From Rhodopseudomonas julia (GTDB lineage Bacteria; Pseudomonadota; Alphaproteobacteria; Rhizobiales; Afifellaceae): 64,000 nucleotides of DNA. Position 1 is the first letter of the stretch. The number at the start of each line of letters is the position of its first letter. A program made the translations under genes and the position numbers. A model generated the notes under the pieces. That model was not told where the DNA came from. It saw only the letters and a program-made list of their open reading frames with translations, and did no database searches. This document shows positions 3,236-58,731 of the stretch, piece after piece. Location of the stretch: assembly GCF_030813515.1 (NCBI RefSeq), contig NZ_JAUSUK010000002.1, positions 1,054,001-1,118,000 on the forward strand, in the 5' to 3' direction.

Positions 3236-3265
3236 GTGCATGCTGACGGGCCGGAACAGGAAGCG

Positions 3266-14282: not shown

Positions 14283-14461
14283 GCGAATCGGACGGGGCCG
14301 CGAACGCGGTGCGTTTGGCTCCACATGACCGAAGTCCGACGTATGCGTGTCTGAAAGATCGCGGGCGTGGCGCGCCGACTTGTTTGTGCCTGCGCAACCG
14401 GGACGGAATGTGGCGCGCATCCGGCTTGACACTTCGACACCATCCAGCCTTTATCGCTGTC

Positions 14462-14665
14462 GATGGTTTCCAGCGAAACGAAGACTTCGCTGGATGAAAA
14501 GGGAATACGGTGCGGTGTAGCCAGTAGGCGCCAAATCCGTGACTGCCCCCGCAATTGTGAGCGGAGAGCGACCCCGAACGATGCCACTGGGCGTATGACG
14601 GACACCGTCTGGCGCCTGGGAAGGCTCGGGGAAGCAGAGACCCGCAAGTCAAGAGACCTGCCATC
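14462..14665 (+). ncRNA. Cobalamin riboswitch
   Basis: The conserved aptamer elements occur in order: AAAAGGGAAT at 14497-14506, AAATCCGTGACTGCCCCCGC near 14535-14555, GCCACTG at about 14583, GGGAAG near 14620, and the B12 box AGACCCGCAAGTCAAGAGAC with CTGCC around 14638-14662. P1 can close by GATGG at 14462-14466 with CCATC at 14661-14665. About 145 bases of expression platform follow before the binding-protein gene at 14810. Cobalamin should switch off the downstream importer operon. Confidence 0.95.
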
Positions 14666-14809
14666 ATCATGCAACCAGACCCGGCGGGGATGTCGGGGGA
14701 AGGATCGAGATGACATTCCTGTCGTCGACGACAATGCGCGAGTCTCTTTTCGGGCAATCCATTCCGCCTGCCCCCGCGGTTCTCTCTCGGAACCAGGATA
14801 GCAGACACA

Positions 14810-42122: not shown

Positions 42123-42539
42123 ATGGACATCAATCCTGACCGTCTGGGTAAGGTCGCGATCATTGCCGCGATCAGCTCGCGCGAGGAGGAAGAGGTCTTC
42201 AAGCAGTATATCGCGGCGAGTACGCGCTTGAAGCTCGGCATCACCTTTGTCAGCGGTATCCGCACCGATGTGACGAAGACATTCGTGAAGTCGCTCGTCG
42301 CCTGCGCTCTCCAAAGCCATATCATTCACCACCATCACAACGAGATCCACGCGGTCATCCATGCCGGGCTCGAATGCCTGAAGGGCGTCAGCTCGGATGT
42401 TGCGGCAGAATCAAGCCTGAAGCTCAAGGTGGCCATCGTTTCAGACGGGAGGTGGCTCGCGATTGCCGCACATGGCGAATCTGCTTTTCATCCCGAAACA
42501 AACCATGAGCGGATGGGCTTCGGGGTCATGCATCTCTAG
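42123..42539 (+). CDS. HutP-like RNA-binding antitermination protein
   Basis: The 138-residue protein resembles Bacillus HutP, a hexameric protein that binds L-histidine and Mg2+ and then grips leader RNA to prevent termination of the hut operon. The metal ligands of HutP (His73, His77, His138) line up here as His76 and His80 in EIHAVIHAGLECLKGV, and His128 in NHERMGFGVMHL; His137 matches His147. The distance from His128 to the C terminus is the same as in HutP. A cluster of four His (69-72) precedes. The ATG at 42123 has AAGGAA. No histidine-use gene is nearby; instead the next operon makes malonate decarboxylase, so the effector is probably different. Autoregulation is possible through the upstream hairpin. 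Confidence 0.8.
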   Translation: MDINPDRLGKVAIIAAISSREEEEVFKQYIAASTRLKLGITFVSGIRTDVTKTFVKSLVACALQSHIIHHHHNEIHAVIHAGLECLKGVSSDVAAESSLKLKVAIVSDGRWLAIAAHGESAFHPETNHERMGFGVMHL

Positions 42540-43097: not shown

Positions 43098-43600
43098 ATT
43101 TTGCCGCAACCTATGTCCGGGCAGGGGTCTGGACTCTTCGGCTTCAGAGTGAGATATACGACTTAAGTCGGGGGTACCAAAACGGGAACCCGATGGGCCC
43201 TCGGGCCACGTGATGCTCCGCCTGGCGGAGATGTACTGCTCCTTCGGGAGCTAGTGATACAGTGATCAGGGGTGACGCCAACCGCATTCGCGGAGGCGGG
43301 CGCCTATCTTGAAAGCCCCTTTGGGGCGTGTGATCTCGTGATTGGAGCAGCTTGGGCGCCCCTTCGGGGAGTTCGTCTCATCCTTTGCTCACACCCATTC
43401 CTCACCAGTGAATCAGTGTTCTCCGTGTCGGTGAACTCCTGAATCTCCTTGCGGCTTTCGGCGCTTACCGGCGTTCGAGGTCAACGGGGAATTGCGCCCT
43501 CGCGCCGCCCGCTACGAGCGACGTTCGGACGCGGCGAAATCGCCAAAGCAGGTTTTGCGCGAACTGCGACCACCGTCAAAGCGCAGCCTGGGGAGGCGAA
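43098..43600 (+). ncRNA. Long structured leader RNA with hairpin-GTGAT modules before the malonate operon
   Basis: About 500 bases lie between the promoter and the first ribosome site with no long gene. Short GC-rich hairpins occur in series: GGCC-CTCG-GGCC at 43196-43207, CTCCGC-CTG-GCGGAG at 43216-43230, GCTCC-TTCG-GGAGC at 43238-43251, GCCCC-TTT-GGGGC at 43315-43327 and CCCC-TTC-GGGG at 43359-43369. After the first, third and fourth, exactly two bases follow and then GTGAT (43210, 43254, 43330). The third and fourth have a second GTGAT after three more bases (43262, 43338). After the second hairpin the same place holds GTACT. A 12-base palindrome CGACTTAAGTCG lies at 43159-43170. The HutP-like protein encoded upstream is the obvious candidate ligand. 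Confidence 0.7.
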
Positions 43601-43681
43601 ATGAGTGCGAGATTATGCAAGCCTCTCAGCAACTTACAGAAAACAAATCCGGGCAGACGCCGGCTTTCGAGGTCGGAGTAA
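43601..43681 (+). CDS. Possible 26-codon upstream reading frame overlapping mdcB
   Basis: The strongest ribosome site here, GGGGAGG at 43590-43596, is ideally spaced for the ATG at 43601, which is out of frame with mdcB. That frame encodes 26 residues (MSARLCKPLSNLQKTNPGRR and six more) and stops at 43679-43681. The mdcB ATG at 43615 lies inside it. It may be a regulatory leader peptide; otherwise a sequencing frameshift would make 43601 the real mdcB start. Confidence 0.35.
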   Translation: MSARLCKPLSNLQKTNPGRRRLSRSE

Positions 43682-44604
43682 GCGCTATCACCTGGCGCAT
43701 CGGCTCGGCGTTCCTCGCCGGCGCATTGCTCGAGGTCGCCACGCATCCGAAGCCCGGGTTGGTGACTGCGCGCTCCAACGGTGCGCACCGCGACATGGAC
43801 ATCTCCACCTTCATGGTGTCCTCGGCTGCGATCGCTCCCTGTTTCTTCCAATGTGCCGACGCTGGCCAGCGTCATGAAGGGCCTGTGAGCAGCCTTCTGC
43901 CGAGCGTGCGCAACATCGGCTCGCATTATGAGGGCCTGCTTCTTGCCGCAACAGGCGGTGTCAACACACAACGTGGTTTCCTCTTTTCCGCCGGTATCTT
44001 GAGCGCTGCGGCTGGTCTGCTGGCGCGCGAACCGGCGCCTATCACTGCCGATGCTCTCTTCGCGACTGCTGCCTTGATGGTCGATGGGCTTTGCGCCCGC
44101 GAGCTCTGCAGTCTTGCCGGTCGCGAAGCTACGACGGCCGGCGAGTGGCTCTATCAGCGCTACGGTGTCCAGGGCATCCGCGGCGAAGTGGAGGCGGGTT
44201 TTCCGACCGTCGCCGAAGCCGGGCTGCCGGCCTTCCGAGCAGCCCGCGAAAAGGGAGCGTCTGTCCAGACGGCGCTCATCCATACGCTCATTTCTTTGAT
44301 GGCTGTCGCCGAAGACACGACGCTCTTGTGGCGCGGTGGCTTTGCCGCGCTCGACTTTGTGCGCGCGGAAGCCCGCGAAGTGCTTCGTCTCGGCGGGGCG
44401 CTGAGCGAGGTCGGCATGGCCGCGATCCGCCGTCTCGATGCGGCATGCATCACCCGAAATATCAGCCCCGGAGGTTCGGCCGATCTTCTGGCCATCACCT
44501 TCGGCGTCGATGCGCTCTTGAGCGGCCATCCTGCCCCCGGAGCCGCTTTCACCGACCGGCCCCTCACGGCGGGTCAGTCTCCTAACCCCCCGAGGATCTC
44601 ATGA
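43615..44604 (+). CDS. mdcB: Triphosphoribosyl-dephospho-CoA synthase
   Basis: The 329-residue enzyme makes 2'-(5''-triphosphoribosyl)-3'-dephospho-CoA, the precursor of the prosthetic group of malonate decarboxylase ACP. CitG/MdcB motifs are EVATHPKPGLVTARSNGAHR with DMD near residue 50, GGVNTQRGFLFSAGIL, and EDTTLLWRGG. The ATG at 43615 is the first in frame near the homology, but its ribosome site is weak; a stronger one serves an overlapping frame at 43601. Its TGA overlaps the ATG of a 37-codon gene. It is the first enzyme gene of the malonate operon. Confidence 0.93.
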   Translation: MQASQQLTENKSGQTPAFEVGVSAITWRIGSAFLAGALLEVATHPKPGLVTARSNGAHRDMDISTFMVSSAAIAPCFFQCADAGQRHEGPVSSLLPSVRNIGSHYEGLLLAATGGVNTQRGFLFSAGILSAAAGLLAREPAPITADALFATAALMVDGLCARELCSLAGREATTAGEWLYQRYGVQGIRGEVEAGFPTVAEAGLPAFRAAREKGASVQTALIHTLISLMAVAEDTTLLWRGGFAALDFVRAEAREVLRLGGALSEVGMAAIRRLDAACITRNISPGGSADLLAITFGVDALLSGHPAPGAAFTDRPLTAGQSPNPPRIS

Positions 44605-44727: not shown

Positions 44728-45936
44728 ATGTTACATCAACTTCTTAGCATCTTCCCGGGCATCGGGACGCTCTTCGTTCAGGATCCGGTTATCGCGTTCT
44801 CGCGTATCGGTCTCATCATCCTCGGCTTCACACTTGCCTATCTCGGCTTCAAGCGGACGCTCGAGCCCTTGATCATGGTTCCGATGGGTCTCGGCATGAT
44901 GGCGGTCAACGCCGGCGTCATGTTCCTGGAGGCCGGCAAGATCGGCACCCTCATCATCGCGCCGATGGTCTCCGAGACGGGCCCCTTGGTCGACATCATG
45001 CAGATCAACTTTCTGCAGCCGATCTACAACTTCACCTTCGTGAACTCGCTCGTCGCCTGCATGCTCTTCATGGGCATCGGCACGATGGCCGATATCTCCT
45101 TCATTCTGGCGCGCCCCTGGGCTTCGATCACGGTTGCGGTCTGCGCCGAGCTCGGCACCTTCGTGACGCTGGTGATCGGCTACTACTGCGGCCTGACGCC
45201 GGGGCAGGCGGCTGCGGTCGGCACGATCGGCGGCGCCGACGGCCCGATGGTTTTGTTTGCCTCGCTGATCATGGCGAAAGACCTCTTCGTCCCGATCTCC
45301 ATCATCGCTTATCTCTATCTGTCGCTGTGCTACGCCGGCTATCCGTACCTTGTGCGCTGGCTGGTGCCTGAGAAGTACCGTGGCATCGAGGTCGAGATCG
45401 ACTTCCCTGACGTCTCCCCGCAGGCGAAGTTCATCTTCACCATCGTTGCTGCGGGACTCCTCTGCCTGCTCCTGCCGGTGGCGTCTCCGTTGATCCTGTC
45501 CTTCTTCATGGGCGTTGCGATCAAGGAAGCCGAAATTGAGCCCTACCAGAAGCTCCTTGAGAACACGATCACCTATGGGTCGACCCTGTTCCTCGGCCTT
45601 GTGCTCGGCGTGCTTTGCGAGGCTTCGACACTCCTTGATCCGCGGGTCGCGATCCTGCTCGTCCTCGGCATCACGGCGCTCGCCGTCTCCGCTCTCGGGG
45701 GTATCGGTGGCGGCTGGCTGGTCTGGTTCCTGAGCAAGGGCAACTACAACCCGGCCACGGGCATCGCAGGTGTCTCCTGCATGCCGTCCACCGCCAAGAT
45801 CGCCCAACGCTGCGCCTTCGAGGCAAGCCCCTACGCCATGATTATGCCTCTGGCCATGGGTGCTTCGATCTGCGGCGTCATCGTCTCCGCCATCGCCGTC
45901 GGCGTCTTCGCTTCGACGATCGGCCTGGTCGGATGA
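44728..45936 (+). CDS. madB: Na+-translocating carboxybiotin decarboxylase subunit (MadB/OadB family)
   Basis: The 402-residue membrane protein decarboxylates carboxybiotin and exports Na+. It belongs to the OadB/GcdB/MmdB family, with about nine helices. Key residues are visible: the conserved Asp in GTIGGADGPMVLFASLIMAK, the GNYNPATGIAGVSCMPSTAK loop with its Asn and Ser, and the region SETGPLVDIMQINFLQPIYN. It follows the 37-residue peptide by 13 bases and overlaps the biotin-ligase ATG by four. Energy released by malonate decarboxylation is stored as a sodium gradient. Confidence 0.96.
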   Translation: MLHQLLSIFPGIGTLFVQDPVIAFSRIGLIILGFTLAYLGFKRTLEPLIMVPMGLGMMAVNAGVMFLEAGKIGTLIIAPMVSETGPLVDIMQINFLQPIYNFTFVNSLVACMLFMGIGTMADISFILARPWASITVAVCAELGTFVTLVIGYYCGLTPGQAAAVGTIGGADGPMVLFASLIMAKDLFVPISIIAYLYLSLCYAGYPYLVRWLVPEKYRGIEVEIDFPDVSPQAKFIFTIVAAGLLCLLLPVASPLILSFFMGVAIKEAEIEPYQKLLENTITYGSTLFLGLVLGVLCEASTLLDPRVAILLVLGITALAVSALGGIGGGWLVWFLSKGNYNPATGIAGVSCMPSTAKIAQRCAFEASPYAMIMPLAMGASICGVIVSAIAVGVFASTIGLVG

Positions 45937-46865
45937 CGGAGCGTCCGGTGTCTGCGCGCCCCCCAACCCTGCAGACACCGGACGCCAGTTTTCAAAGCAT
46001 CGAAACCCTTACTCCGGACGAAACCATGTCCACCTTCTTCGCCCTCGCTGCCACGCCCACCGACCTCGCAAGCCATTGCGGTGTCGAGCGTCGGAACGGC
46101 GGGATCGACCCAGTCTACCGTATCTCCGCCGTCGATTCGACGAACCGGCTTATCCGGGATCTCGCTGCCGAAGGGGTGGCGCCAGGTCTTGCAGTGGTGG
46201 CGGAGCATCAGACGGCGGGCCGGGGGAAGGGCAAGCGTTTCTGGTTTTCGGAGCCGGGCAAGGGTTTCGCTCTGTCACTGCTGTTGCGGCCGACACGGCC
46301 GGTTGAAGAAGTCTCCCAGCTTACCCTCGTGCTGGGTGTGGCCGTCGCTGAGGCCATCGTGCAGGCGACCGGTGTCGCAGCCGAGCTCAAATGGCCAAAC
46401 GATATCCTCGTCGACGGTCGCAAACTTTGCGGCATCCTGTGCGAGCTCGTTCTGACCCCGGAAGGGGACATGGCTCACGTGATCGCCGGTATCGGCCTCA
46501 ACGTGAACGTCGCGGCCTCCGACTTCCCCCCGGTCCTTGAAAACATCGCCACATCGCTCGCGATCGAAGCCGGTCGGGCGATCGATGCCGAAGCGGTGCT
46601 GTCGGCGGTCCTCGTCTCGGTCGAGCGGTGGATGAAGCGCTGGGAAGACGAGGGCTTCGACCCCATTCGCCAGGCCTGGATTGCGCGCTCTTGCACGATC
46701 GGGCGGGAGATCTCCTTCGATGCGGGCGAAGCGCGCTGCCGAGGCGTTGCGACCGACCTCGGCCCTGACGGCAGCTTAAGTATTCGAGACGGAAGTGGCT
46801 CTCTACACCGCTTCTACTACGGAGAAGCGTGTCATTCGCCCGCCATTGCGAGCATTGTGCGCTAA
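45933..46865 (+). CDS. Biotin-protein ligase (BirA-type, no DNA-binding domain)
   Basis: The 310-residue enzyme shows biotin ligase motifs: STNRLIRDLA, HQTAGRGKGKRFWFS (GRGRxGR-like), ELKWPNDILVDGRKLCGIL, AGIGLNVNV and a C-terminal SH3-like domain. No N-terminal winged helix is present, so it should not act as a repressor. The first 30 residues do not match the family; ATG 46026 could be the true start, but ATG 45933 overlaps the madB stop (ATGA). Its location within the mad operon suggests that it serves the biotin carrier MadF. Confidence 0.92.
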   Translation: MTERPVSARPPTLQTPDASFQSIETLTPDETMSTFFALAATPTDLASHCGVERRNGGIDPVYRISAVDSTNRLIRDLAAEGVAPGLAVVAEHQTAGRGKGKRFWFSEPGKGFALSLLLRPTRPVEEVSQLTLVLGVAVAEAIVQATGVAAELKWPNDILVDGRKLCGILCELVLTPEGDMAHVIAGIGLNVNVAASDFPPVLENIATSLAIEAGRAIDAEAVLSAVLVSVERWMKRWEDEGFDPIRQAWIARSCTIGREISFDAGEARCRGVATDLGPDGSLSIRDGSGSLHRFYYGEACHSPAIASIVR

Positions 46866-46888
46866 TAAAAGGAAACAGAGGTTGTTCC

Positions 46889-48562
46889 ATGTCCACTAAC
46901 TCTACAGAAAAGAAGTGGGACCGCCGCTCTGCAGATACTGCGGAGAGGCTGGAGGCTGCCTCCCGGTACATTGGTCCGGGAAAGCAGTTCAAGCCGGAGG
47001 ACACGGTCGCGCTGCTTGAAGCGGTGATCCGCGCCGGCGACCGGGTCAATATCGAAGGCAACAATCAGAAGCAGGCCGATTTCCTCGCCGAGTGCCTCAA
47101 CAAGGTGGACAAGTCGAGGATCCACGATCTGCACATGGTGCAGTCGGCCGTGCCGCTGCCCGTTCATCTGGACCTGTTTGAGAACGGCATCGCCAAGAAG
47201 CTCGACTTCGCGTTCGGCGGACCGCAGGCCGGCCGCGTCGCCAAGTTCATCAGCGAAGGCAAGCTCGAGCTTGGTGCCATCCATACCTATCTGGAGCTCT
47301 TCGGCCGCTACTTCCTCGACCTGACGCCAAAGGTGTCTCTCATCTGCGCCTACAAGGCGGACCGGCAGGGCAACCTCTACACCGGCTTCAACACCGAAGA
47401 CACGCCGACGATCGTCGAGGCGACGAAGTTCCGTCAGGGCATCGTGATTGCCCAGGTCAACGAGATCGTCGACAAGCTTCCGCGTGTCGACATTCCGGCT
47501 GACTGGATCGACGGCGTCGTGCAGTCGCCGAAGCCGTTCTTCATCGAGCCCTTGTTCACCCGCGACCCGGCGCTCGTCACGGAAAGCCAGATCCTCCTCG
47601 CGATGCTGTGCCTCAAGGGCATCTACGCCGAGTACGAGGTGAAGCGGATCAACCACGGCATCGGCTTCCTGACCTCAGCCATTGAGCTGCTTCTGCCCAC
47701 CTACGGCGAAGAGCTCGGCCTCAAGGGCAAAGCCTGCACGCACATGATCCTCAACCCGCATCCGACGATGATCCCGGCGATCGAATCGGGCTGGGTCGAC
47801 ACGATCCACTGCTTTGGTGGTGAGCTCGGCATGGAGAAGTACGTTGCGGCCCGCCCGGACGTCTTCTTCACGGGTCCCGACGGCACGCTGCGCTCCAACC
47901 GCGCTTACGCACAGACCGCCGGCCATTACGCCCTCGATATGTTCATCGGCGGCACGCTGCAGATCGACAAATTCGGCAATTCCTCCACGGCGACCGCATC
48001 GCGTGTCGCTGGCTTCGGTGGCGCGCCCAACATGGGTTGCGATGCCAAAGGCCGTCGCCATGCCACCGACAGCTGGTTGAAGGTCGGCAAGGAGATGCCG
48101 ACGCTTGATCGTCAGATCGGCAACATGCCGCGCGGCAAACGTCTGGTCGTGCAGGGTGTTGAAACGTTCGGCGAGGGCAGGGCGCCCGTGTTCGTGGAAC
48201 AGCTCGACGCCTGGAAGCTTGCCGAGAACGCAAATCTCGATCTGCCTCCGGTGATGATCTACGGCGACGATCTCACCCACATCGTGACCGAGGAAGGCAT
48301 CGCCTACCTCAATCGCTGCGCGGACATCGAGGCGCGCATGGCCGCCATTCGTGCCGTCGCCGGCTACACCGAGATCGGCCTCAAGGCCAATCCGGACGAA
48401 ACCCGGCAGCTGCGTGAAGCCGGCATCGTCAAGACACCGGAAGACCTGGGCGTCGACCGCTCCCGTGCCAACCGCTCGCTGCTTGCAGCCCGCAACATCC
48501 GCGACCTCGTGAGCTGGTCGGGCGGCCTCTACAACCCGCCGGCCCGGTTCCGCAACTGGTGA
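46889..48562 (+). CDS. madA: Malonate decarboxylase alpha subunit, acetyl-ACP:malonate ACP transferase
   Basis: The 557-residue protein swaps acetate for malonate on the acyl carrier protein. It matches MdcA/MadA throughout, such as GDRVNIEGNNQKQADFLAEC, HDLHMVQSAVPLPVHLDLFE, FGGPQAGRVAKFISEGKLEL, and GFGGAPNMGCDAKGRRHATD. A good ribosome site (AAAGGAAACAGAGG) stands before the ATG at 46889; the ligase gene ends 23 bases upstream. It is cytoplasmic and acts with MadE, MadC and MadD. Confidence 0.96.
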   Translation: MSTNSTEKKWDRRSADTAERLEAASRYIGPGKQFKPEDTVALLEAVIRAGDRVNIEGNNQKQADFLAECLNKVDKSRIHDLHMVQSAVPLPVHLDLFENGIAKKLDFAFGGPQAGRVAKFISEGKLELGAIHTYLELFGRYFLDLTPKVSLICAYKADRQGNLYTGFNTEDTPTIVEATKFRQGIVIAQVNEIVDKLPRVDIPADWIDGVVQSPKPFFIEPLFTRDPALVTESQILLAMLCLKGIYAEYEVKRINHGIGFLTSAIELLLPTYGEELGLKGKACTHMILNPHPTMIPAIESGWVDTIHCFGGELGMEKYVAARPDVFFTGPDGTLRSNRAYAQTAGHYALDMFIGGTLQIDKFGNSSTATASRVAGFGGAPNMGCDAKGRRHATDSWLKVGKEMPTLDRQIGNMPRGKRLVVQGVETFGEGRAPVFVEQLDAWKLAENANLDLPPVMIYGDDLTHIVTEEGIAYLNRCADIEARMAAIRAVAGYTEIGLKANPDETRQLREAGIVKTPEDLGVDRSRANRSLLAARNIRDLVSWSGGLYNPPARFRNW

Positions 48563-48579
48563 CGAAGGACCTTTGAATC

Positions 48580-48897
48580 ATGGCTTTGAATACCTTGGAA
48601 TTCGACCTCAAGCTCGATGAGGTGACGCATTCGATCGACACGCCGATCCATCTCGGCGTCGTCGGCTCGGGCGACATGGAAGTCCTGATGGAGCCCAAGG
48701 ATCTAAAGGGCGCCGTCTCGGTCCGCATCGTCACCCCCGTCGCTGGCTTCGACGATCTGTGGAAGCGCGTGGTGGAGAAGTTCGTCTCCGAAACGCTCCT
48801 CGGCGATGTCCACCTCGAGATCAACGACAACAACGCGACGCCCGCCGTCGTCCTGCTGCGCCTGCGCCAGGGCTTTGCGGAAGCGACCGGCGAGTAA
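48580..48897 (+). CDS. madE: Malonate decarboxylase acyl carrier protein (delta subunit)
   Basis: The 105-residue protein carries the phosphoribosyl-dephospho-CoA arm through which acetyl and malonyl groups are held. The attachment Ser is probably Ser30 in LGVVGSGDMEVLME, matching the VGSGD motif of MdcC. The rest resembles the family, with TPVAGFDDLWKRVVEKF and the ending RLRQGFAEATGE. The gene lies 17 bases after madA and 11 before madC. Confidence 0.95.
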   Translation: MALNTLEFDLKLDEVTHSIDTPIHLGVVGSGDMEVLMEPKDLKGAVSVRIVTPVAGFDDLWKRVVEKFVSETLLGDVHLEINDNNATPAVVLLRLRQGFAEATGE

Positions 48898-48908
48898 GGA
48901 GAGATCTG

Positions 48909-49865
48909 ATGCCGAAATGGAATGATCTTCAGGAGCAGAGCTTCCTGGAATCTGATGCACGCGCCCGGGCCGTCGGCCTGGTCGACGAGGGCACCTATAC
49001 GGAACTCGCAGGTCCGTTCGACAGGTTCTACAGCCCGCACCTGGAAGTCCTGGGCGAAGCCGTCGAATTCGACGACGGGATCGTCACCGCGGTTGGCAAG
49101 ATCGGCAAGACCCCGGTTTTCGTCATCTCGCAGGAAGGCCGGTTCATCGGCGGTTCCGTGGGCGAAGTCGGTGGCGCGAAGATGGTCAACACCATCCGTC
49201 TCGCCATCGAATTCCACGACAAGCTGGTGGCGGAGTATCCGGACATCTCCGACGAGGAGAAGCCGGTCGTCGTCATCTCTTTCGAGACCGGCGGTGTGCG
49301 CCTGCATGAATCGAATGCCGGTCTTCTCGCGCATGCCGAGGTGATGGACCAGTTGCAGAAGGCGCGCCACAAGGTGCCGGTCATCACGCTCATCGGCTCG
49401 AAGGTCGGCTGCTTCGGCGGCATGGGCTTTGTTGCGGCTGCGACGGACGCCATCGTGATGAGCGAGTTCGGACGTCTTGGCCTGACCGGCCCTGAGGTCA
49501 TCGAACAGGAGATGGGCAAGGAGGAATTCGATTCCTCTGATCGTGCGCTCGTTTTCCGCACCACGGGTGGTCGGCACAAATACATCATGGGCGACTGTAA
49601 CGTCCTCGTGCACAACACGATCGCCGCCTTCCGCGAGGCCGTCGCCAAGCTCGCCGTTCTGCCGGTTTCGGAATTCGAGAAGATGCGCCGCATCGGCTCG
49701 CCTGAGGCCGTCGAACGCCAGCTGCGTGCTGTTGCGCTTGCTGCCGAGATGCAGCCGCAGGACGCCCGTGACGTTTGGGCCAAAGCCGGCAATCCCGATC
49801 CCGTCGCTCTCACCGACATTCCGCTCGACGAGTTCATCGCCGACGTGAAGCGGCTGTCCGTCTGA
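48909..49865 (+). CDS. madC: Malonyl-ACP:biotin carboxyltransferase subunit C (beta)
   Basis: The 318-residue protein is one half of the carboxyltransferase with a crotonase-like fold. Visible elements are SFLESDARARAVGLVDEGTY, GRFIGGSVGEVGGAKMVNTI, ISFETGGVRLHESNAGLLAH, and GSKVGCFGGMGFVAAATDAI. It transfers the malonyl carboxyl to biotin on MadF together with MadD. The ATG at 48909 has AAGGAGA in front and is the start of homology. Confidence 0.95.
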   Translation: MPKWNDLQEQSFLESDARARAVGLVDEGTYTELAGPFDRFYSPHLEVLGEAVEFDDGIVTAVGKIGKTPVFVISQEGRFIGGSVGEVGGAKMVNTIRLAIEFHDKLVAEYPDISDEEKPVVVISFETGGVRLHESNAGLLAHAEVMDQLQKARHKVPVITLIGSKVGCFGGMGFVAAATDAIVMSEFGRLGLTGPEVIEQEMGKEEFDSSDRALVFRTTGGRHKYIMGDCNVLVHNTIAAFREAVAKLAVLPVSEFEKMRRIGSPEAVERQLRAVALAAEMQPQDARDVWAKAGNPDPVALTDIPLDEFIADVKRLSV

Positions 49866-49899
49866 GCCCGGTCAGAAATCCCATAATCAGGAGACAATC

Positions 49900-50793
49900 A
49901 TGGAAGCCACTGAGACCATGATGGGAAGAGGTCGGGACGCGATCGACATGATCGTCGATGCCGACAGCTTCAACGAGGGCACCGTCGGTGCCAAAACCTT
50001 CGACGATCCCGAATTCGGTCCGGGTGCTGTTGTCGGGACCGCAGCCCTCAACGGCGAGGAGGTGACGATCATCGCCTCCGATGCCAACGCCTTCAACGAG
50101 AAGTTCCCCGTCGTCTATGCCGGCATCATCGGCATGGAGGAGGGCTACAAGATGGCTCAGGCCGTCTACGCCTCCCTCGAAGCCGATAAGGACAAGCCGG
50201 CTGCGCAGAAGCGTTCGCTCGTGCTCATCGTCGACACTCCAGGAAACGGTCCTGGCAAAGTCGAAGAGATCTTCGGCATGAACAAGGCGACCGGTGCCTA
50301 TCAGCTGGCGCTCGCCGAGGCTCGGCTCGCGGGTCATCCGATCGTTGCCATGGTCATCGGCCGGGCGATCTCGGGCGCCTTCCTTTGCCACGGATTGCAG
50401 GCGGATCACATCGTGTCCCTCGACGCCAATTTTGGCACGATGATCCACGTGATGCCGCTCACCTCGGTGTCGCGCATCATCCGCAAGGATCTTGAGACGC
50501 TGCAGGAATTGTCGAAGGGCAATCCCGTCTTCGCGGCAGGACCGCGCTTCTTCTACGCCCTCGGCGGCGTCGAGGAGCTGGTCGGAACGCTCGACGGTAT
50601 GCGTCCGACGATCATCGAGCACATCAAGGCGATCCGTGCCGCCAAGGCGGCCGGGGAAGCCGAGAAGCTCGGCCCGTGGGGCCGGGGCCAGCTCGGTGCC
50701 GAACGCGATGGCCGCAAGGTCCGGCCTGAAGTCATCAAGCTGATGAACCAAGAGTTCGCAGCAGTCGCCGAGAAATACGCTCCATCTCGCTGA
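49900..50793 (+). CDS. madD: Malonyl-ACP:biotin carboxyltransferase subunit D (gamma)
   Basis: The 297-residue partner of MadC has the crotonase-like motifs VLIVDTPGNGPGKVEEIFGM, AYQLALAEARLAGHPIVAMV, and GRAISGAFLCHGLQADHIVS. Compared with MdcE of the biotin-free enzymes the overall order is the same. AGGAGAC precedes the ATG. MadC and MadD together form the soluble carboxyltransferase. Confidence 0.94.
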   Translation: MEATETMMGRGRDAIDMIVDADSFNEGTVGAKTFDDPEFGPGAVVGTAALNGEEVTIIASDANAFNEKFPVVYAGIIGMEEGYKMAQAVYASLEADKDKPAAQKRSLVLIVDTPGNGPGKVEEIFGMNKATGAYQLALAEARLAGHPIVAMVIGRAISGAFLCHGLQADHIVSLDANFGTMIHVMPLTSVSRIIRKDLETLQELSKGNPVFAAGPRFFYALGGVEELVGTLDGMRPTIIEHIKAIRAAKAAGEAEKLGPWGRGQLGAERDGRKVRPEVIKLMNQEFAAVAEKYAPSR

Positions 50794-50815
50794 CGACCCC
50801 AAAGGGACGACGATC

Positions 50816-51916
50816 ATGTCTGACGATCTGACGGTTCTCGAAGCAGCTCTGGACGCTTTCGGCACAGCTCCGACTTTGGAGGAGATGCCGCGGCGGACAT
50901 TGGCGGACAAGGGTATCGACGGTCCTACCGCCGCCCATGTCATCGAGGAGGTGCATACGCCTTTCAATCTGGCGTATCTCACCTTCACGACAGGCTCTTC
51001 GGCGTTCCAGAATATCGTCGGCGTGGTCCATGGCGAGATTTCCGGCCGCTGCGCGGTGGCCCGGACCCTGTTCGAAAGACTTGGGTCCGGGCCAGGAGCG
51101 CGGATGCTTGTCAGCTATCCGCCTCTCGTCAATGTCTTCTCCGCAGAGGCGCTGCGCCAATGCGGGGTGGAATGGAGTTTCCTCAAGCGCTCGAGCCGCG
51201 ATGCCTTCCTCGTCGCGGCCTGCCGTGAGAAACCTTCGATTATCCTTGGAGAATCCTCGTTCTTGCGGGCAAGCCTGGAGCAGGCGGGTCCGCTTGGACT
51301 GAAAGATGAATTGCCGGAGGGGGCTGTCCTCCTCACGGCCGGAACGCCGCTCGACGAAGGCCTGCTGCCGGTCGCGGAACGTTTCGGCTACACCGTCCAT
51401 GACCTTTATGGCTGCCAGGAATTCGGCTGGCTCACCCTCGACGGCGTGCCGCTGCGCGACGACATCAGCCTCGTCGCATCACCCCGCGGGCCTTCGTATC
51501 GCGAACTCGTGGTCGGCGGCCTGCCGATGGGCGACAGCTTCATCGTCTCGCAGTCCGGGCATGTGTGCGACCGCGCGGGTGAAATCATCACCTATCGCCG
51601 CGAACGCACCTATCCAGAATATGAAGTCGTCGTCACCCACACGACGGCGAAGGCTGCCGAAACGGTGGAGAAGGCGGCTCGCACGATTTTGCGGATCAAA
51701 GGTCGGGTCGTGAAGGTGGCGCCGGACGTCGTGGTGGGCGCCCCGGCGACGCGGCTCAAGCTCATTCCCGGTCTTCCGGTCGGTGATGCCGCCACACATG
51801 CCGGCGTCGAGATCGTCGGACCTGAAAAGACGCGCCTCTTCGACGTGGTGGTCGAGGCGCAGGCCAATCTGCAGAAGACCGCAAAGACGGATCCTGCGTG
51901 GATCAAGAGGCGCTGA
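50816..51916 (+). CDS. madH: Acetate-[acyl-carrier-protein] ligase
   Basis: The 366-residue protein matches MadH, which uses ATP and acetate to load the free thiol of the ACP and so start the catalytic cycle. Distinctive parts are FNLAYLTFTTGSSAFQNIVG, VHDLYGCQEFGWLTLDGVPL and SGHVCDRAGEIITYRRERTY. I rely on location and remembered resemblance; it lacks the standard AMP-binding motif set. Biotin-free Mdc clusters normally lack this gene, so it supports the Mad type. AAAGGGACGACGATC precedes the ATG. Confidence 0.82.
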   Translation: MSDDLTVLEAALDAFGTAPTLEEMPRRTLADKGIDGPTAAHVIEEVHTPFNLAYLTFTTGSSAFQNIVGVVHGEISGRCAVARTLFERLGSGPGARMLVSYPPLVNVFSAEALRQCGVEWSFLKRSSRDAFLVAACREKPSIILGESSFLRASLEQAGPLGLKDELPEGAVLLTAGTPLDEGLLPVAERFGYTVHDLYGCQEFGWLTLDGVPLRDDISLVASPRGPSYRELVVGGLPMGDSFIVSQSGHVCDRAGEIITYRRERTYPEYEVVVTHTTAKAAETVEKAARTILRIKGRVVKVAPDVVVGAPATRLKLIPGLPVGDAATHAGVEIVGPEKTRLFDVVVEAQANLQKTAKTDPAWIKRR

Positions 51917-51918
51917 TC

Positions 51919-52695
51919 ATGCTGAACCGGCGCCATTTCCTCGCTTATCTCCATCCTGAGGCTCGTCAGGCGCTCGCGCCGGCACTCGTGGAAGCGCTGC
52001 CGCACACGATGCGCGACAGCGTCACTGAAACGGCGGTGCTGCACGGGTTCCTGACGGATCGGATTCCCGGCATCGTCTGCCGTCCGACCAGGCGTTGCAC
52101 CGAAGGGCAGGGACAGCTCGGCTTTGCCTTCCCCCTTCGTGTCGGTGAAGAACGGGTGCGGAGCTCGGTTCTGGTCGAGCCGGAGCACATCGCGTCTTTC
52201 TTGTCGCCCTACGAGGTGATGGAGCGGGCGGCTCTCCGTTTTCCCCCACCGCATGCGGCTTTGCGGGTCGCGCTATCGCTCGCTCGCCGCTTCGATATCC
52301 GGCTCGGTCTCATCGGATCTGCAGCGCTCGCCGCGATGACTGGCCTTCCGTATGTGCGGCCTCAATCGGATCTCGATCTCTTGATCGATGCCGACCAAGG
52401 CGGCGACTTCCAAGCTTTTCATGCATCTCTTGCGACGATCTCGCGAGAGATAGGCGTTAAGGCCGATGTCGAACTGGAATTTAATTGTTCCGTCGGCGTC
52501 AAACTTTCCGAATATATTTCAGGAAGAGAAGTTCTTCTTGCGAAGACGATTAATGATGTGGAGCTCATAGACCGGATTGAATTGCAGAGTTGCTTGGCTG
52601 ATGGGGCGCGAATTAACGCCTCTGTTGCCGGGCGTTGGGGGGAGCATTGCAAGGTCCCCACAACCGAAACCATCGAAAACCAATGGAGTGAATGA
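51919..52695 (+). CDS. mdcG: Phosphoribosyl-dephospho-CoA transferase (ACP activation)
   Basis: The 258-residue nucleotidyltransferase attaches the prosthetic group made by MdcB to the ACP serine. The nucleotidyltransferase motif is GSAALAAMTGLPYVRPQSDL with Asp151 and Asp153 in SDLDLLID as probable metal ligands. AGAGG overlaps the madH stop, and ATG 51919 follows it by two bases. The last third (about 52440-52610) is noticeably more AT-rich than its neighbours. The stop overlaps the start of madF. Confidence 0.92.
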   Translation: MLNRRHFLAYLHPEARQALAPALVEALPHTMRDSVTETAVLHGFLTDRIPGIVCRPTRRCTEGQGQLGFAFPLRVGEERVRSSVLVEPEHIASFLSPYEVMERAALRFPPPHAALRVALSLARRFDIRLGLIGSAALAAMTGLPYVRPQSDLDLLIDADQGGDFQAFHASLATISREIGVKADVELEFNCSVGVKLSEYISGREVLLAKTINDVELIDRIELQSCLADGARINASVAGRWGEHCKVPTTETIENQWSE

Positions 52696-52904
52696 TGGAT
52701 ATCAAAGTGAAAATGCCTTCGACCGTCGTGTCGATCGAGGTCGCCGTCGGAGATGCGGTGACGAAGGGTCAGAGCCTCGCAGTGGTTGAGGCGATGAAGA
52801 TGAAGAACAACACGCCTTCGCCGGTCGACGGCACGGTCAAGTCGATTTCGGCTTCCGTCGGCGAGCGCCTGAAGCCAGGTGCCGTCCTCATGGTCGTCGA
52901 GTGA
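52692..52904 (+). CDS. madF: Biotin carrier protein of malonate decarboxylase
   Basis: The 70-residue protein is a minimal biotinyl domain. Lys36 in VVEAMKMKNNT is the biotinylation site, and PVDGTVKSISASVGERLKPG is the second half of the barrel. Two adjacent ATGs (52692, 52695) are possible starts; the first overlaps the mdcG stop by four bases. It shuttles CO2 from the MadC/MadD carboxyltransferase to MadB in the membrane. Its presence separates this system from the biotin-free Mdc enzymes. Confidence 0.95.
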   Translation: MMDIKVKMPSTVVSIEVAVGDAVTKGQSLAVVEAMKMKNNTPSPVDGTVKSISASVGERLKPGAVLMVVE

Positions 52905-52974
52905 TTGAGTGAAGTGGGGCGGCGCCTCGCGCCGCCCCCTCAAACGAAGGCTCCGATACTCTGGAGTAAGTGAA

Positions 52975-53415
52975 ATGGTGATTTACGGACTAGCCCTAAT
53001 GGGCGGATGCATGATCGTAGGTACCGGTCTCGGCTACCTGATCGGTCATCTCGTTGGCATTGACGCGAATGTGGGCGGCGTTGGCATCGCGATGCTGTTG
53101 CTCGTCGTCATCTCGCGCCAGCTTATGGACAAAGAGCAGCTTTCCAAGCTGGCCCAGGACGGCATCATGTTCTGGAGCGCGATGTACATTCCTATCGTGG
53201 TGGCCATGTGCGCCCGCCAGAACGTCATCGCGGCTTTCGATGCCGGTGCTCTGGCCTTCGTGGCTGGACTCGGTGCCGTCTTCGCCGGCTTCCTGCTGAT
53301 CCGCCCGATTGCGGCGCTCAGCCCGAAGAGTGATCCGCTTCCGCCCCTCGACGCGGATAATGCTGCTCCCGCCGCCACCGTCGCGGTGCCTGAATCCGCG
53401 AAGGAGGTCAAATAA
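52975..53415 (+). CDS. madL: Malonate transporter subunit MadL
   Basis: The 146-residue membrane protein matches MadL: MVIYGLALMGGCMIVGTGLG at the N terminus, NVGGVGIAMLLLVVISRQLM, and FWSAMYIPIVVAMCARQNVI. It has four hydrophobic segments and a Pro/Ala-rich cytoplasmic tail of about 30 residues. Together with MadM it imports malonate with Na+. The ATG at 52975 starts the conserved region. It lies 70 bases after madF and two bases before madM. Confidence 0.95.
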   Translation: MVIYGLALMGGCMIVGTGLGYLIGHLVGIDANVGGVGIAMLLLVVISRQLMDKEQLSKLAQDGIMFWSAMYIPIVVAMCARQNVIAAFDAGALAFVAGLGAVFAGFLLIRPIAALSPKSDPLPPLDADNAAPAATVAVPESAKEVK

Positions 53416-53417
53416 TC

Positions 53418-54176
53418 ATGGATATCCTGGTACAAGCAGTCTCCAAATATCCTCTGGTTACTGCCTTCGTCGTCATCGGCCTCATCATGTGGGTGTCGAG
53501 CTATATTGGCAAAATCTTCAACAACCGCATCCACGCTTCCGCGATCGCCATTGTCATTGGTCTGATCCTGGCCTTCATCGGTGGCAAATACACCGGCGGC
53601 AAGCATGGCATCTCCGACGTCGGATTGTTCGCGGGCATCGGCCTGATGGGCGGCAGCGTCTTCCGTGACTTCGCGATCGTTGCCACGGCCTTCGGCGTGA
53701 AGCTGGAAGAGCTGAAGAAGGCGGGCGTGCCCGGTGTGGTCGCTCTTGTCGTCTCGATGATCCTGTCGACGGCGATCGGTGCGGCGACGGCTTACGCGTT
53801 CGGCTACACGAACCCGGTCGACATGGCCACGATCGGCGGCGGTGCGGCGACCTTCATCGTCGGTCCGGTGACCGGTGCGGCTCTCGGCGCATCTTCGGAA
53901 GTTATCGCCCTGTCGGTTGCCGCCGGCGTGGTGAAGTCGATCTCCGTGATGATCCTGACCCCGTTCCTTGCCAAGATGGCGGGCCTCAACAACCCGGCTG
54001 CAGCGGCTGTGTATGGTGGTCTCATGGGAACGACCAGCGGAACAGCCGCAGGATTGGCTGCTACCGATCCGCGGCTGGTTCCTTATGGTGCGATGACGGC
54101 GACGTTCTACACGGGCTTTGGCTGTCTGGTCGTCCCCTCACTCGGTTACGCCGCGATCGTTGCCCTGGTTGGTTGA
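53418..54176 (+). CDS. madM: Malonate transporter subunit MadM
   Basis: The 252-residue membrane protein has about seven helices and the MadM pattern: VSSYIGKIFNNRIHASAIAI, FIGGKYTGGKHGISDVGLFA, and GLMGGSVFRDFAIVATAFGV. With MadL it forms the malonate:Na+ symporter. It is the last mad gene. A 206-base gap with a hairpin separates it from the biotin uptake genes. Confidence 0.95.
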   Translation: MDILVQAVSKYPLVTAFVVIGLIMWVSSYIGKIFNNRIHASAIAIVIGLILAFIGGKYTGGKHGISDVGLFAGIGLMGGSVFRDFAIVATAFGVKLEELKKAGVPGVVALVVSMILSTAIGAATAYAFGYTNPVDMATIGGGAATFIVGPVTGAALGASSEVIALSVAAGVVKSISVMILTPFLAKMAGLNNPAAAAVYGGLMGTTSGTAAGLAATDPRLVPYGAMTATFYTGFGCLVVPSLGYAAIVALVG

Positions 54177-54218
54177 ACCTTTTGCCGAAGGACCAGTCAG
54201 GGTTTCATCCTGCGCAAC

Positions 54219-54358
54219 ACACCTGAGAATGAGACACCTGAGACAGTGTTTCAAGCGATGGTGCTACGAATAGGGTTCTGGCGCACGAATATGTGAATGA
54301 CGTTCGTATTCCGAACCTGCAGCCGCCGGCCTGTCTCTTTTACGAGAGATGCCGGCGG
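54219..54358 (+). promoter_or_regulatory. Repeat and hairpin between madM and bioM
   Basis: ACACCTGAGA occurs twice as a direct repeat (54219-54228 and 54234-54243). Further on CCGCCGGC (54323-54330) pairs with GCCGGCGG (54351-54358), with an inner TCTC/GAGA stem, giving a strong hairpin 24 bases before bioM. No T-run follows. These may be a control site and a leader structure for separate expression of bioMNY; no BioR-type TTATNNATAA box was found. Confidence 0.45.
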
Positions 54359-54382
54359 CGCCAACGCTCCAAGGGGCAGATT

Positions 54383-55063
54383 ATGACGACGATCGAGATC
54401 CGCGCGGTTCATCAGCGCTTCGAGACCTTCGAGGCCTTGAAGGGCATCGACCTGACGCTGGACGAGAAGCGTATCGGTATCGTCGGCTCCAATGGTTCCG
54501 GCAAGAGCACGTTCGCCCGGCTCTTGAACGGACTTCTCATCCCCACCTCCGGACAGGTTCTCGTCGACGGCCTCGATACGGCCAAGTCGGGCAAGGCGGT
54601 TCGTCGCAAGGTGGGTTTTGTCTTCCAAAATCCAGACAATCAGATCGTCTTCCCGATCGTGGAAGAAGATGTCGCCTTCGGCCTCAAGGGGCTGAAGCTT
54701 CCCGCAGCCCAGCGTGGCGCCCTCGTCGAAGAGGTGCTCGACCGCTACGGGCTCGGACCTTTTCGTTCGCATCCGTCGCATACGCTTTCCGGCGGACAGA
54801 AGCAGCTTCTGGCCCTGGCGGGCGTCCTCATCACGCGGCCTGATTGCGTCGTTTTTGATGAGCCGACGACGCTCCTCGATTTGCGCAACGCCAGGCGGGT
54901 TGCCAAGGTCATCGACGAGATGGAAGAGACCGTCATCGTCGTCACGCACGACTTGCCGCTACTGGAATCATTCGACCGCGTCATCGTCTTCGACCAGGGC
55001 AGGGTGATTGCCGACGACGCGCCGAATTCGGCGCTCGCGCGCTATGTGGAGCGTATGCAATGA
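54383..55063 (+). CDS. bioM: Biotin ECF transporter ATPase BioM
   Basis: The 226-residue ATPase energises biotin uptake. Walker A is GSNGSGKST near residue 35, Q-loop [20 protein letters not shown], signature [15 protein letters not shown], Walker [13 protein letters not shown] and H-loop VVTHDLPLL. The Q-loop with FQNPDNQ is typical of energy-coupling factor ATPases. The ATG at 54383 has AAGGGGCAG in front. It overlaps bioN by four bases. Confidence 0.94.
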
Positions 55064-55758
55064 AATCCCGCGGCGAGATATCCTCATTCCTGCATGCGCT
55101 GCCGGCTGCGGCAAAGCTCCTGGTTCTGGCGGCCGCGGGCACAGGGCTGGTCCTCGTCGGCAGTCTTCCGGTTCTCGCCGGAGCGTTCCTCGGGACCCTG
55201 ATCCTTTACTGGCTTGCAGGCATTTCGCAGCAGAAGGCATTCCAGCAATTGCGCCCGCTGTTGTGGCTGTTGGTGCTTCTCTTTGTCGTCCAAGGCTTCT
55301 GGCAGTCATGGGAAATTGCGGGACTCGTCGTCCTGCGGATCTCGACGCTCATCCTTCTGGCTGCGTTTGTGACGCTGACGACACGCACGGACGCACTGAT
55401 AGCGGCTGTTGAAAGGGCGCTCACGCCGCTTCGGCGCTTCGGCGTCAATCCCGCCAAGGTCGGTCTCGCCTTTTCTCTGGCGCTCCGGTTCATTCCGGTC
55501 ATCGCGCAACAGGCGAACGATATCCGTGACGCGCAGCGGGCGAGGGGGCTTGGGGCCAATCCCGTCGCGCTCGCCTTGCCGCTTATTGTCCGGACCCTTC
55601 GAATGGCGAGCGATGTTGCCGATGCGATCGATGCGCGCTCGCCCTACAGTGATCACTCTGGCGACGAAGGCGAGCTGCCGCCGCGCTTCGTTCTCGAGCC
55701 GAATACGTCCAATGCGAGGATGTCATGCAACGACGCGGAACCACAACTAAAGACATAG
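55060..55758 (+). CDS. bioN: Biotin ECF transporter transmembrane protein BioN
   Basis: The 232-residue membrane protein is the T component that couples BioM and BioY. It has about five helices and the coupling motif [20 protein letters not shown] near residue 165, an ARG motif as in other EcfT proteins. The C terminus of about 35 residues is hydrophilic and overlaps the bioY start by 34 bases. Confidence 0.93.
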
Positions 55759-56288
55759 TCTACATCGCCCTTTTCGCCGCTTTCATGGCTGCGCTTGGGA
55801 TTTTCCCGCCGGTGATGCTGCCGCTGATCGGCGTGCCCATCACCGCTCAGTCGATGGGACCGATGCTGGCTGGAGCCATCCTGGGGGCGCGCCGGGGCGC
55901 GCTGTCGATTCTACTCTTCCTCGCGCTCGTCGCCGTCGGACTGCCGCTCCTTGCCGCCGGTCGCGGCGGTCTTGGCGTCTTCTTCGGCCCGACCGCCGGC
56001 TACCTTTTCGGTTGGGTCGCGGCCGCCTTCGCCGTCGGACTTTTGCACGAATGGGGCTGGAACCGGCTTAATGTCGTCACGTCGTTCGTCTTCTGCGCGC
56101 TCGGCGGCATCGTGGTGCTTTATGCTATCGGTATCCCGTGGACCGCGATCAATGTCGGCCTGCCGCTGACGAAGACCGCGATCGCATCGGCAGCGTTTAT
56201 CCCGGGAGATCTGGTCAAGGCCGGTCTCGCCGCCATCATCGCGGTTTCCGTAAAGCGCTCTTATCCGATCATTCAGCGGACGGCATAG
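55725..56288 (+). CDS. bioY: Biotin ECF transporter substrate-binding protein BioY
   Basis: The 187-residue membrane protein is the biotin-binding S component. The BioY pattern is clear: VMLPLIGVPITAQSMGPMLA, GAILGARRGALSILLFLALV, GRGGLGVFFGPTAGYLFGW and the ending FIPGDLVKAGLAAIIAVSVK. It lies inside the 3' end of bioN. Co-location with a biotin-dependent decarboxylase and a biotin ligase makes its role in cofactor supply for this pathway plausible. Confidence 0.96.
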   Translation: MQRRGTTTKDIVYIALFAAFMAALGIFPPVMLPLIGVPITAQSMGPMLAGAILGARRGALSILLFLALVAVGLPLLAAGRGGLGVFFGPTAGYLFGWVAAAFAVGLLHEWGWNRLNVVTSFVFCALGGIVVLYAIGIPWTAINVGLPLTKTAIASAAFIPGDLVKAGLAAIIAVSVKRSYPIIQRTA

Positions 56289-58006: not shown

Positions 58007-58444
58007 ATGCAAAACAGGCAGGAAGCCGAAGTGGTGAATAACGACAGCAGGCGGCGCTCGCGCCTCCATCTTTTTGGCCGGCAGATGCCTCTGCCGCACA
58101 GCCCGCTTTTGCGTGTTGGTATCGGGATTTTGCTGATTCTCGGCGGTTTTTTCGCGTTCCTGCCTGTGCTCGGCGTGTGGATGCTGCCCCTCGGCCTGAT
58201 CGTGTTGTCGATCGACATTCCCGCGGTGCGGCGTTGGCGGCGACGGTTCACTGTGTGGATCTATACGCACTATCCTAGTGTGGCGCGGCGATTCGACGTC
58301 GCCGCGCCTGCGGGTAATGGCAAAGCGGCTGTCGCGGGTAAAATCGATTCGGAAACGCCCTTCGTTTCGCCGGATGAGACACGCGCGAGCGAAACGGAGC
58401 GGTCGACGGAATCGCGCTTGCGGCAGTCTTCCGATTCCGTTTAG
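58007..58444 (+). CDS. Small two-helix membrane protein of unknown function
   Basis: The 145-residue protein has a basic N terminus (about 30 residues), two close hydrophobic segments (LLRVGIGILLILGGFFAFLP and GVWMLPLGLIVLSIDIP), then a basic stretch VRRWRRRFTVWI and a hydrophilic Ser/Thr/Glu-rich tail. The GVWMLPLGLIVLSIDIP region resembles small PGPGW-type membrane proteins, in which a glycine-proline turn joins two helices. I cannot assign a function. It is a single gene between tRNA-Asn and the cobalamin riboswitch. Confidence 0.72.
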   Translation: MQNRQEAEVVNNDSRRRSRLHLFGRQMPLPHSPLLRVGIGILLILGGFFAFLPVLGVWMLPLGLIVLSIDIPAVRRWRRRFTVWIYTHYPSVARRFDVAAPAGNGKAAVAGKIDSETPFVSPDETRASETERSTESRLRQSSDSV

Positions 58445-58452
58445 TCTTTGAA

Positions 58453-58644
58453 ATGGTTCCGGTTCCCGAAAGGTGCACAGCACCAGGGGATCAAAAGGGA
58501 ATGCGACAGGGACGACCCAGATCGGGGTCCCTCATCCGCAGCTGCCCCCGCAACTGTACGCGGCGAGCCCCCTGCACAAGCCACCGGCAACGGGAAGGCG
58601 CAGAAGGGGCTGAGACCCGCAAGCCAGGAGACCTGCCGGACCAG
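58453..58644 (+). ncRNA. Cobalamin riboswitch
   Basis: All aptamer parts are present: AAAAGGGAATGCGACAGGGA near 58493-58512, GCAGCTGCCCCCGCAACTGT near 58540, GCCACCGG near 58580, GGGAAGGCG, and the B12 box AGACCCGCAAGCCAGGAGAC with CTGCC ending at 58637. P1 can form between TGGTTCCGG (58454-58462) and CCGGACCA (58636-58643). About 330 bases separate it from cobU, so the platform may be long or a small gene may lie between. It should repress cobalamin synthesis genes when the vitamin is plentiful. Confidence 0.95.
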
Positions 58645-58731
58645 GGCAACTCGAACGCCGTCGGAGGGACGGTAAAGGGGATAGCATGCAAGGTTCGGGA
58701 AAATTTCCCTCGGCAATTCTAGCCAGGACGG

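Follow-up and report, generated by a model that had tools for sequence, protein, structure and literature searches.

A conserved set of GUG triplets and a HutP relative suggest a possible new HutP-type RNA switch in the leader of alphaproteobacterial malonate decarboxylase operons

To our knowledge, HutP has been studied mainly on the hut operon of Bacillus. According to PMC7430163, HutP recognizes NAG triplets, and its site in the leader RNA is a cluster of three triplets. The mad (malonate decarboxylase) locus of Rhodopseudomonas julia described here, part of a window of 64,000 nucleotides (the whole stretch of DNA analysed), resembles the hut/HutP system of Bacillus subtilis in the protein family, the predicted fold and the metal-site histidines, in the three-triplet cluster in the leader RNA (PMC7430163) and in the position of the regulator gene near a catabolic operon. 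In contrast to hut, the operon serves malonate and not histidine, the triplets are mostly GUG instead of NAG, and they lie in the loop of a short hairpin, with additional hairpin-anchored pairs upstream; one universal GUG cluster stands in place of HutP's two clusters of three NAG triplets. Furthermore, the window leader has no clear intrinsic terminator and the window protein lacks two arginine segments of the solved HutP. With the ANTAR and BglG/LicT antiterminators the locus would share an RNA-binding protein that reads the nascent leader, but these systems are described with other RNA-binding domains and RNA sites (PMC8934654). Among the matches listed for the open-licence literature, no publication joined HutP and malonate in this sense: the co-mentions of HutP and malonate were unrelated by title, and those of malonate decarboxylase and antitermination by title and the beginning of the abstract.

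Table 1. Features of the mad locus, in coordinates of the window
Feature	Position	Strand	Basis
HutP-type protein, 138 aa; proposed RNA-binding regulator of the mad operon	42123-42539	+	PF09021, E 2.4e-32
Candidate promoter, CTGGAC (43129-43134)-N18-GATATA (43153-43158)	43129-43158	+	By eye, from relatives
Hairpin H1, GGCC-CTCG-GGCC (43196-43207), two bases, single GTGAT at 43210	43196-43214	+	Sequence; kept in changed form in A. IM167, Breoghania and Roseospira
Hairpin H2, CTCCGCC-T-GGCGGAG	43216-43230	+	Sequence; other arms in A. IM167, hairpin still forms (by eye)
Module 3: hairpin H3 (43238-43251), two bases, GTGAT-ACA-GTGAT	43238-43266	+	Sequence, resampling; other arms in Roseospira
Imperfect hairpin H4, between both double-GTGAT modules	43271-43304	+	Sequence, by eye
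Module 5: hairpin H5 (43315-43327), two bases, GTGAT-CTC-GTGAT	43315-43342	+	Sequence, resampling; Rhodobium counterpart with other arms
Hairpin H6, CCCC-TTC-GGGG	43359-43369	+	Sequence; compensated pairs in Breoghania
T element: CACC/GGTG stem around GTG 43408, GTG 43416 and GTG 43425	43403-43433	+	Common to HutP-carrying alphaproteobacterial mad leaders
First operon gene, mdcB/citG type (ATP:dephospho-CoA triphosphoribosyl transferase)	43615-44604	+	PF01874, E 7.7e-76
Presumed rest of operon: OAD_beta, biotin protein ligase, mdcA, mdcC, mdcD, mdcE, mdcH, madL, madM, ECF/BioY-type transporter genes	44728-56288	+	

The sequence-only reading, an earlier description of this DNA, had placed a HutP homologue just upstream of the leader, and the Pfam search bears this out: the protein scores 112.3 bits against PF09021 (cut-off 25), and its gene is the only PF09021 match in the genome. 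A sequence search with the protein returned three matches, all of them HutP. The AlphaFold model (pLDDT 92.9) aligned to HutP structures with Z values of 18.1 to 19.8, the best being 1vea with an rmsd of 1.6 over 130 residues, and the next fold in the list reached 6.9; the SpoIIAB-type and hotdog-type folds listed after HutP were set aside as similarities at the level of a common arrangement. The window protein is thus predicted to have the HutP fold. H76, H80 and H128, which we take to be the metal ligands of HutP, are invariant in all 24 aligned sequences, two of which are histidine-like, and occupy the same columns in the solved HutP. Missing from the mad type are the CRG and LRSAG-like arginine segments of the solved and histidine-like HutP, which presumably bind histidine; K102 and R130 are nearly invariant in the mad-type proteins. 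The window protein is 33-38% identical to the mad type of Negativicutes versus 22-25% to the two histidine-like proteins. In a protein tree, the alphaproteobacterial HutP-type proteins form one group (100/100), which the tree does not bring closer to either the mad type of Negativicutes or the histidine-like type. The tree has 52 rows and long branches, with bootstraps that did not stabilize, and all we take from it is that the alphaproteobacterial proteins belong together; four Negativicutes rows were left out, three for the wrong strand and one for being empty, a third-type group was thinned to every fourth member and identical proteins were merged.

Within the operon, OAD_beta, biotin ligase, MdcA, MadL and MadM were assigned by Pfam, and mdcC, mdcD, mdcE, mdcH and the transporter genes were named from gene order and likeness to relatives; the mdcH frame had no Pfam match. 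OAD_beta and the biotin ligase presumably mark a biotin-dependent, sodium-type malonate decarboxylase. Among 397 genomes of the order, HutP was found in 8 and full-length MdcA, counted as rows above 800 bits, in 35. All 8 belong to these 35, giving 8/35 genomes with full-length MdcA versus 0/362 without it. Further carriers over the cut-off were found in the order of Azospirillum (4 of 82 genomes) and in that of Roseospira (3 of 150), while a class-wide draw of 385 genomes yielded a single one, the window genome itself. A scan of named genomes gave 12 HutP loci, including Breoghania, Roseospira, Rhodobium, Azospirillum, Oleispirillum and two Phascolarctobacterium. Pfam HutP matches below the cut-off were set aside (three class-wide, two in the Roseospira order, three in Negativicutes). 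All 19 alphaproteobacterial carriers that were followed contain MdcA, which in G781 is partial at a contig edge, and one genome of Afifella, the genus of the window genome, has neither hutP nor MdcA (G166).

The leaders of these carriers share an element that the sequence-only reading had overlooked and that is more widely conserved than the hairpin-GTGAT modules described there. This T element lies just downstream of the modules and has the form CACC ... GTG-N5-GTG-N5/6-GTG ... GGTG over ~31 bases; in the stretch before mdcB of the relatives it is built as CACC, 1-3 bases, GTGA, GTG, GTG and GGTG. Its triplet spacing is presumably different from that of the HutP site. A pattern written from ten leaders already inspected matched once per genome in 15 of the 19 alphaproteobacterial carriers and in none of 44 non-carriers (full MdcA is present in 27 of these); used as a control, the pattern in reverse was absent from all 63 genomes. 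Since ten of the 15 matched leaders were inspected before the pattern was drawn up, the independent part of this test is the result for the uninspected carriers, with five of six matched (G781, G1001, G1027, G1186 and G1212; G1026 was missed). Across 297 genomes of the order, the pattern found six, all carriers, and none of 290 non-carriers, the seventh carrier (G219) having an unmatched variant.

Four leaders carry variants at the same place: the stem is CGCC/GGCG in Breoghania, the spacer is shorter in G323, G219 has both a changed stem and GTA in third position, and in G1026 the second triplet reads GAG. If these variants are admitted by inspection, T is present in 19/19 carrier leaders; the correspondingly broadened expression contains the elements of G777, G219 and G1026 literally, as seen beforehand, and allows the shorter spacer of G323. 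The first triplet is GUG in all 19 leaders, the second and the third in 18 each, with one GAG and one GUA. The natural GAG falls within the NAG code (PMC7430163) and hints at a related recognition. The T stem pairs in 98.6% of the cells of an alignment of 18 of the 19 elements (G097 being identical to Rhodobium). Its one compensated pair was equalled in 57 of 500 shuffles, and covariation of the stem was dropped as support, being too weak to carry the case; as read from these alignments, the evidence for T is conservation, not covariation.

GUG triplets also accumulate upstream of T. In 14 of the 19 leaders, near copies being omitted, the 150 nt upstream of T contain 22 GUG pairs in sense orientation versus a shuffle mean of 5.4, a count reached in none of 500 shuffles; there are none in antisense and four in all in the 150 bases downstream. 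No upstream pair occurs in G779, G1027, G323 and G219.

The position of hutP varies between carriers. The gene is divergent from the mad operon in G323, lies 19 kb away in G1001 and stands at the far end of the operon in Azospirillum G779, G1027, Oleispirillum, G1026, G1186, G1212 and G219, being convergent in G779, placed after the operon in Oleispirillum and ~11 kb downstream of mdcA in G1026. Where hutP is relocated (G323, G779, Oleispirillum, G1001, G1026), T remains before mdcB. Judged by these gene orders, T stays with the operon RNA and not with the hutP gene. In all 19 carriers it is oriented along the operon and precedes its first gene, which in G780 is mdcA.

This arrangement bears on the idea that the GTGAT/GUG repeats are DNA operators for another transcription factor of the malonate operon, with hutP as a passenger. 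The direct repeats GTGATNNNGTGAT do resemble a DNA site as well, and the position of the promoter is only inferred. However, the elements lie downstream of the candidate promoter (T by ~245 bases in the window) and always point the same way with respect to the operon; they co-occur with an RNA-binding protein family, and hairpins with compensated changes flank the upstream modules. We regard such a DNA operator as very unlikely. A sigma-70 consensus scan of the window leader found no promoter; from the boxes shared by eye with relatives, a leader start near 43165 seems preferable to the ~43098 assumed earlier.

The link of T with the protein has to be read together with the operon type. The oadB gene follows mdcB in 17 of the 19 carriers; the contig of G781 ends in mdcB, and the T-led operon of G780 begins with mdcA. 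In contrast, none of the HutP-less MdcA genomes checked (24 of 27, two with shortened stretches) had oadB within ~1.5 kb of mdcA. HutP-type protein and biotin-type operon are therefore confounded, and T could go with the operon type rather than with the protein. Three carriers (G779, G1027 and G780) contain at least two MdcA loci each, but T matches only once per genome; in G779 and G1027 this match lies at the locus bearing oadB.

The modules themselves were recovered as first described: the window leader contains five GC hairpins, three of them followed after two bases by GTGAT, with two instances of GTGAT-N3-GTGAT, and the series exceeds chance. GTGAT starts at 43210, 43254, 43262, 43330 and 43338, and GTGATNNNGTGAT occurs twice in the 64 kb, both times within the mad leader, and nowhere on the other strand. 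GTGATN3GTGAT, present twice, was reached once in 1 of 10000 order-1 resamplings and twice in none. For a hairpin with a stem of at least 5 pairs followed by N2-GTGA[TC], which leaves the four-pair H1 uncounted, the real leader has two matches, a number reached in 0 of 2000 order-1 resamplings. The same scan of the rest of the 64 kb gave three lone matches (43762 and 60685 on the plus strand, 35680 on the minus strand), so the signal is the series of modules and not a single module. These lone matches, and the ease with which GC-rich sequence forms hairpins, are what a chance or repeat-derived feature without a role could appeal to; set against the leader shuffles, the conservation across orders and the single match per genome, we give this explanation next to no weight.

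The earlier description noted arms that differ from hairpin to hairpin beside a constant GTGAT. In the leaders of relatives, the GTGAT segments are retained, and the arms change with compensation. An alignment of five of the 19 leaders (Afifella and Breoghania) was used for the module structure. Here, variation falls in the hairpins, with hardly any change in the unpaired GTGAT segments; of the 105 cells in H1, H3, H5, H6 and the base of H6, 103 pair, and both exceptions occur in A. IM167. Compensated changes were found in H3 and H6, and the closing pair of H3 changes from C-G to U-A in two Afifella. For the five leaders, RNAalifold proposed that the segment behind module 3 pairs over a long distance with module 5. 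We did not use this pairing: the paired segments are mostly invariant, which leaves it without covariation support.

Beyond Afifella, the leaders of Breoghania, Roseospira and Rhodobium have retained the module, so the lack of conservation under the same gene order that would have refuted the earlier proposal was not observed. Altogether, it is present, with altered arms, in 8 of the 19 carrier leaders; isolated matches in G323 and G782 were judged to be chance. Of the earlier proposal, the part that ties a leader RNA element to the HutP-type protein and the malonate operon holds, with strict co-occurrence in the searched genomes, whereas the hairpin-GTGAT module does not hold as the core unit and is, in the relatives compared, a local elaboration. 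With modules in 8/19 leaders and T, variants included, in 19/19, the protein might act via T alone, and the modules might serve RNA stability or another factor. We consider this unlikely, given that a similar GTGA(N)3-4GTG unit is common to modules and T and that GUG pairs of another form precede T in Rhodospirillales leaders as well.

A structured leader with nearly invariant unpaired segments in front of a metabolic operon would also suit a riboswitch that works without protein, the RNA itself sensing malonate, biotin or a CoA ester. No leader matched an Rfam family above its gathering score, however; the lowest E value was 0.91, at 13.5 bits versus a required 45, and such low-score matches were dismissed as chance level. 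Moreover, repeated short identical sites with changeable hairpins fit a repeated protein site better than one binding pocket, and the tie to the HutP-type gene is strict. We hold a direct riboswitch to be highly improbable. Elsewhere in the window, two cobalamin riboswitches were found (14447-14679 and 58443-58654).

On the plus strand of the window leader no intrinsic terminator was detected, and simple HutP antitermination is therefore not visible in the window. Under looser criteria, 11 of the 19 leaders showed weak candidates, and the other eight, including all four Afifella, showed none. The candidates comprise a hairpin ending in TTATTGGG in Azospirillales and a hairpin before TTTTT in Breoghania, and some span the start codon.

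What the sequences show is a set of conserved RNA elements, the association of these elements with the protein gene and with the operon, and a predicted HutP fold; from there, we infer how binding, ligand, sign and read-out may fit together. We think it likely that the mad leader is an RNA operator for the HutP-type protein, permitting expression of the biotin-dependent sodium-type malonate decarboxylase operon. The protein would bind the leader while it is being transcribed, at GUG clusters emerging from RNA polymerase, namely the three triplets in the T loop and, in Afifella and its relatives, also the GUG pairs beside the small upstream hairpins; that it binds the leader RNA at all appears quite likely. 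It would be loaded by a small acid of the pathway, for which malonate chelating the bound metal ion is the foremost candidate, and we hold malonate as the ligand in even balance. Binding would then lead to expression of the operon, through changed transcription elongation or through access to the mdcB start. Positive control seems fairly probable, and elongation is slightly favoured over translation; in the window, the candidate read-outs are control of elongation linked to Rho or to pausing, and accessibility of the mdcB start.

Together, the conserved GUG set and the HutP relative suggest an RNA switch of the HutP type that would be new, differing from HutP in its RNA code and probably also in its signal. 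In a bolder reading, which we hold to be somewhat less likely than not, this HutP branch would have changed both halves of the system: it would read GUG in a hairpin loop instead of NAG and sense malonate via the same metal site, so that a leader RNA in Proteobacteria would respond to a dicarboxylate with no classical intrinsic terminator involved. A second branch of HutP with another RNA code, operon and probably ligand in another phylum would illustrate how both the signal and the target site of an RNA-binding regulator can change. It would also give the biotin-dependent malonate decarboxylase operon a regulator and supply a 31-base RNA element with a small protein that are directly testable.

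A related arrangement is found in Negativicutes (Phascolarctobacterium and others), which share the biotin-type mad genes. In 12 of the 22 loci read there, a HutP-type gene lies directly before mdcA; these 12 come from 11 genomes, L020 and L074 being one contig. Unlike the window, 10 of the 12 have an AG-rich stretch followed by a terminator-like hairpin between hutP and mdcA, and the T expression found no match at the Negativicutes hutP-mdcA loci. The terminator counts of Negativicutes and of the leaders above are not on one scale, as Negativicutes were scanned with a stricter T-run over 180 bases. The hutP-hairpin-mdcA loci suggest that control of malonate operons by a HutP relative may predate the alphaproteobacterial form, as ordinary antitermination.

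One mad operon of Phascolarctobacterium (L019) has two HutP-type genes (3164-3469 and 6001-6381) around oadB and bpl, each followed by a terminator-like hairpin (by eye). Loci L038 to L067 of Negativicutes contain a third kind of the HutP family, with the top Pfam HutP scores and without the HAxxHA and NHE metal-site motifs, as judged in rows read on the right strand.

Two further observations concern the start of mdcB. At 43601-43681 of the window, a 26-codon frame with a good Shine-Dalgarno sequence (GGGGAGG) overlaps the mdcB start; by eye, it is also present in A. marina and G028 and not in A. IM167 or Breoghania. In the Azospirillum order and G323 (L088, L092, L151, L162 and L163), a small hairpin with arms that vary from species to species extends with its 3' arm right up to, or into, the mdcB start codon, a possible translation gate (by eye).
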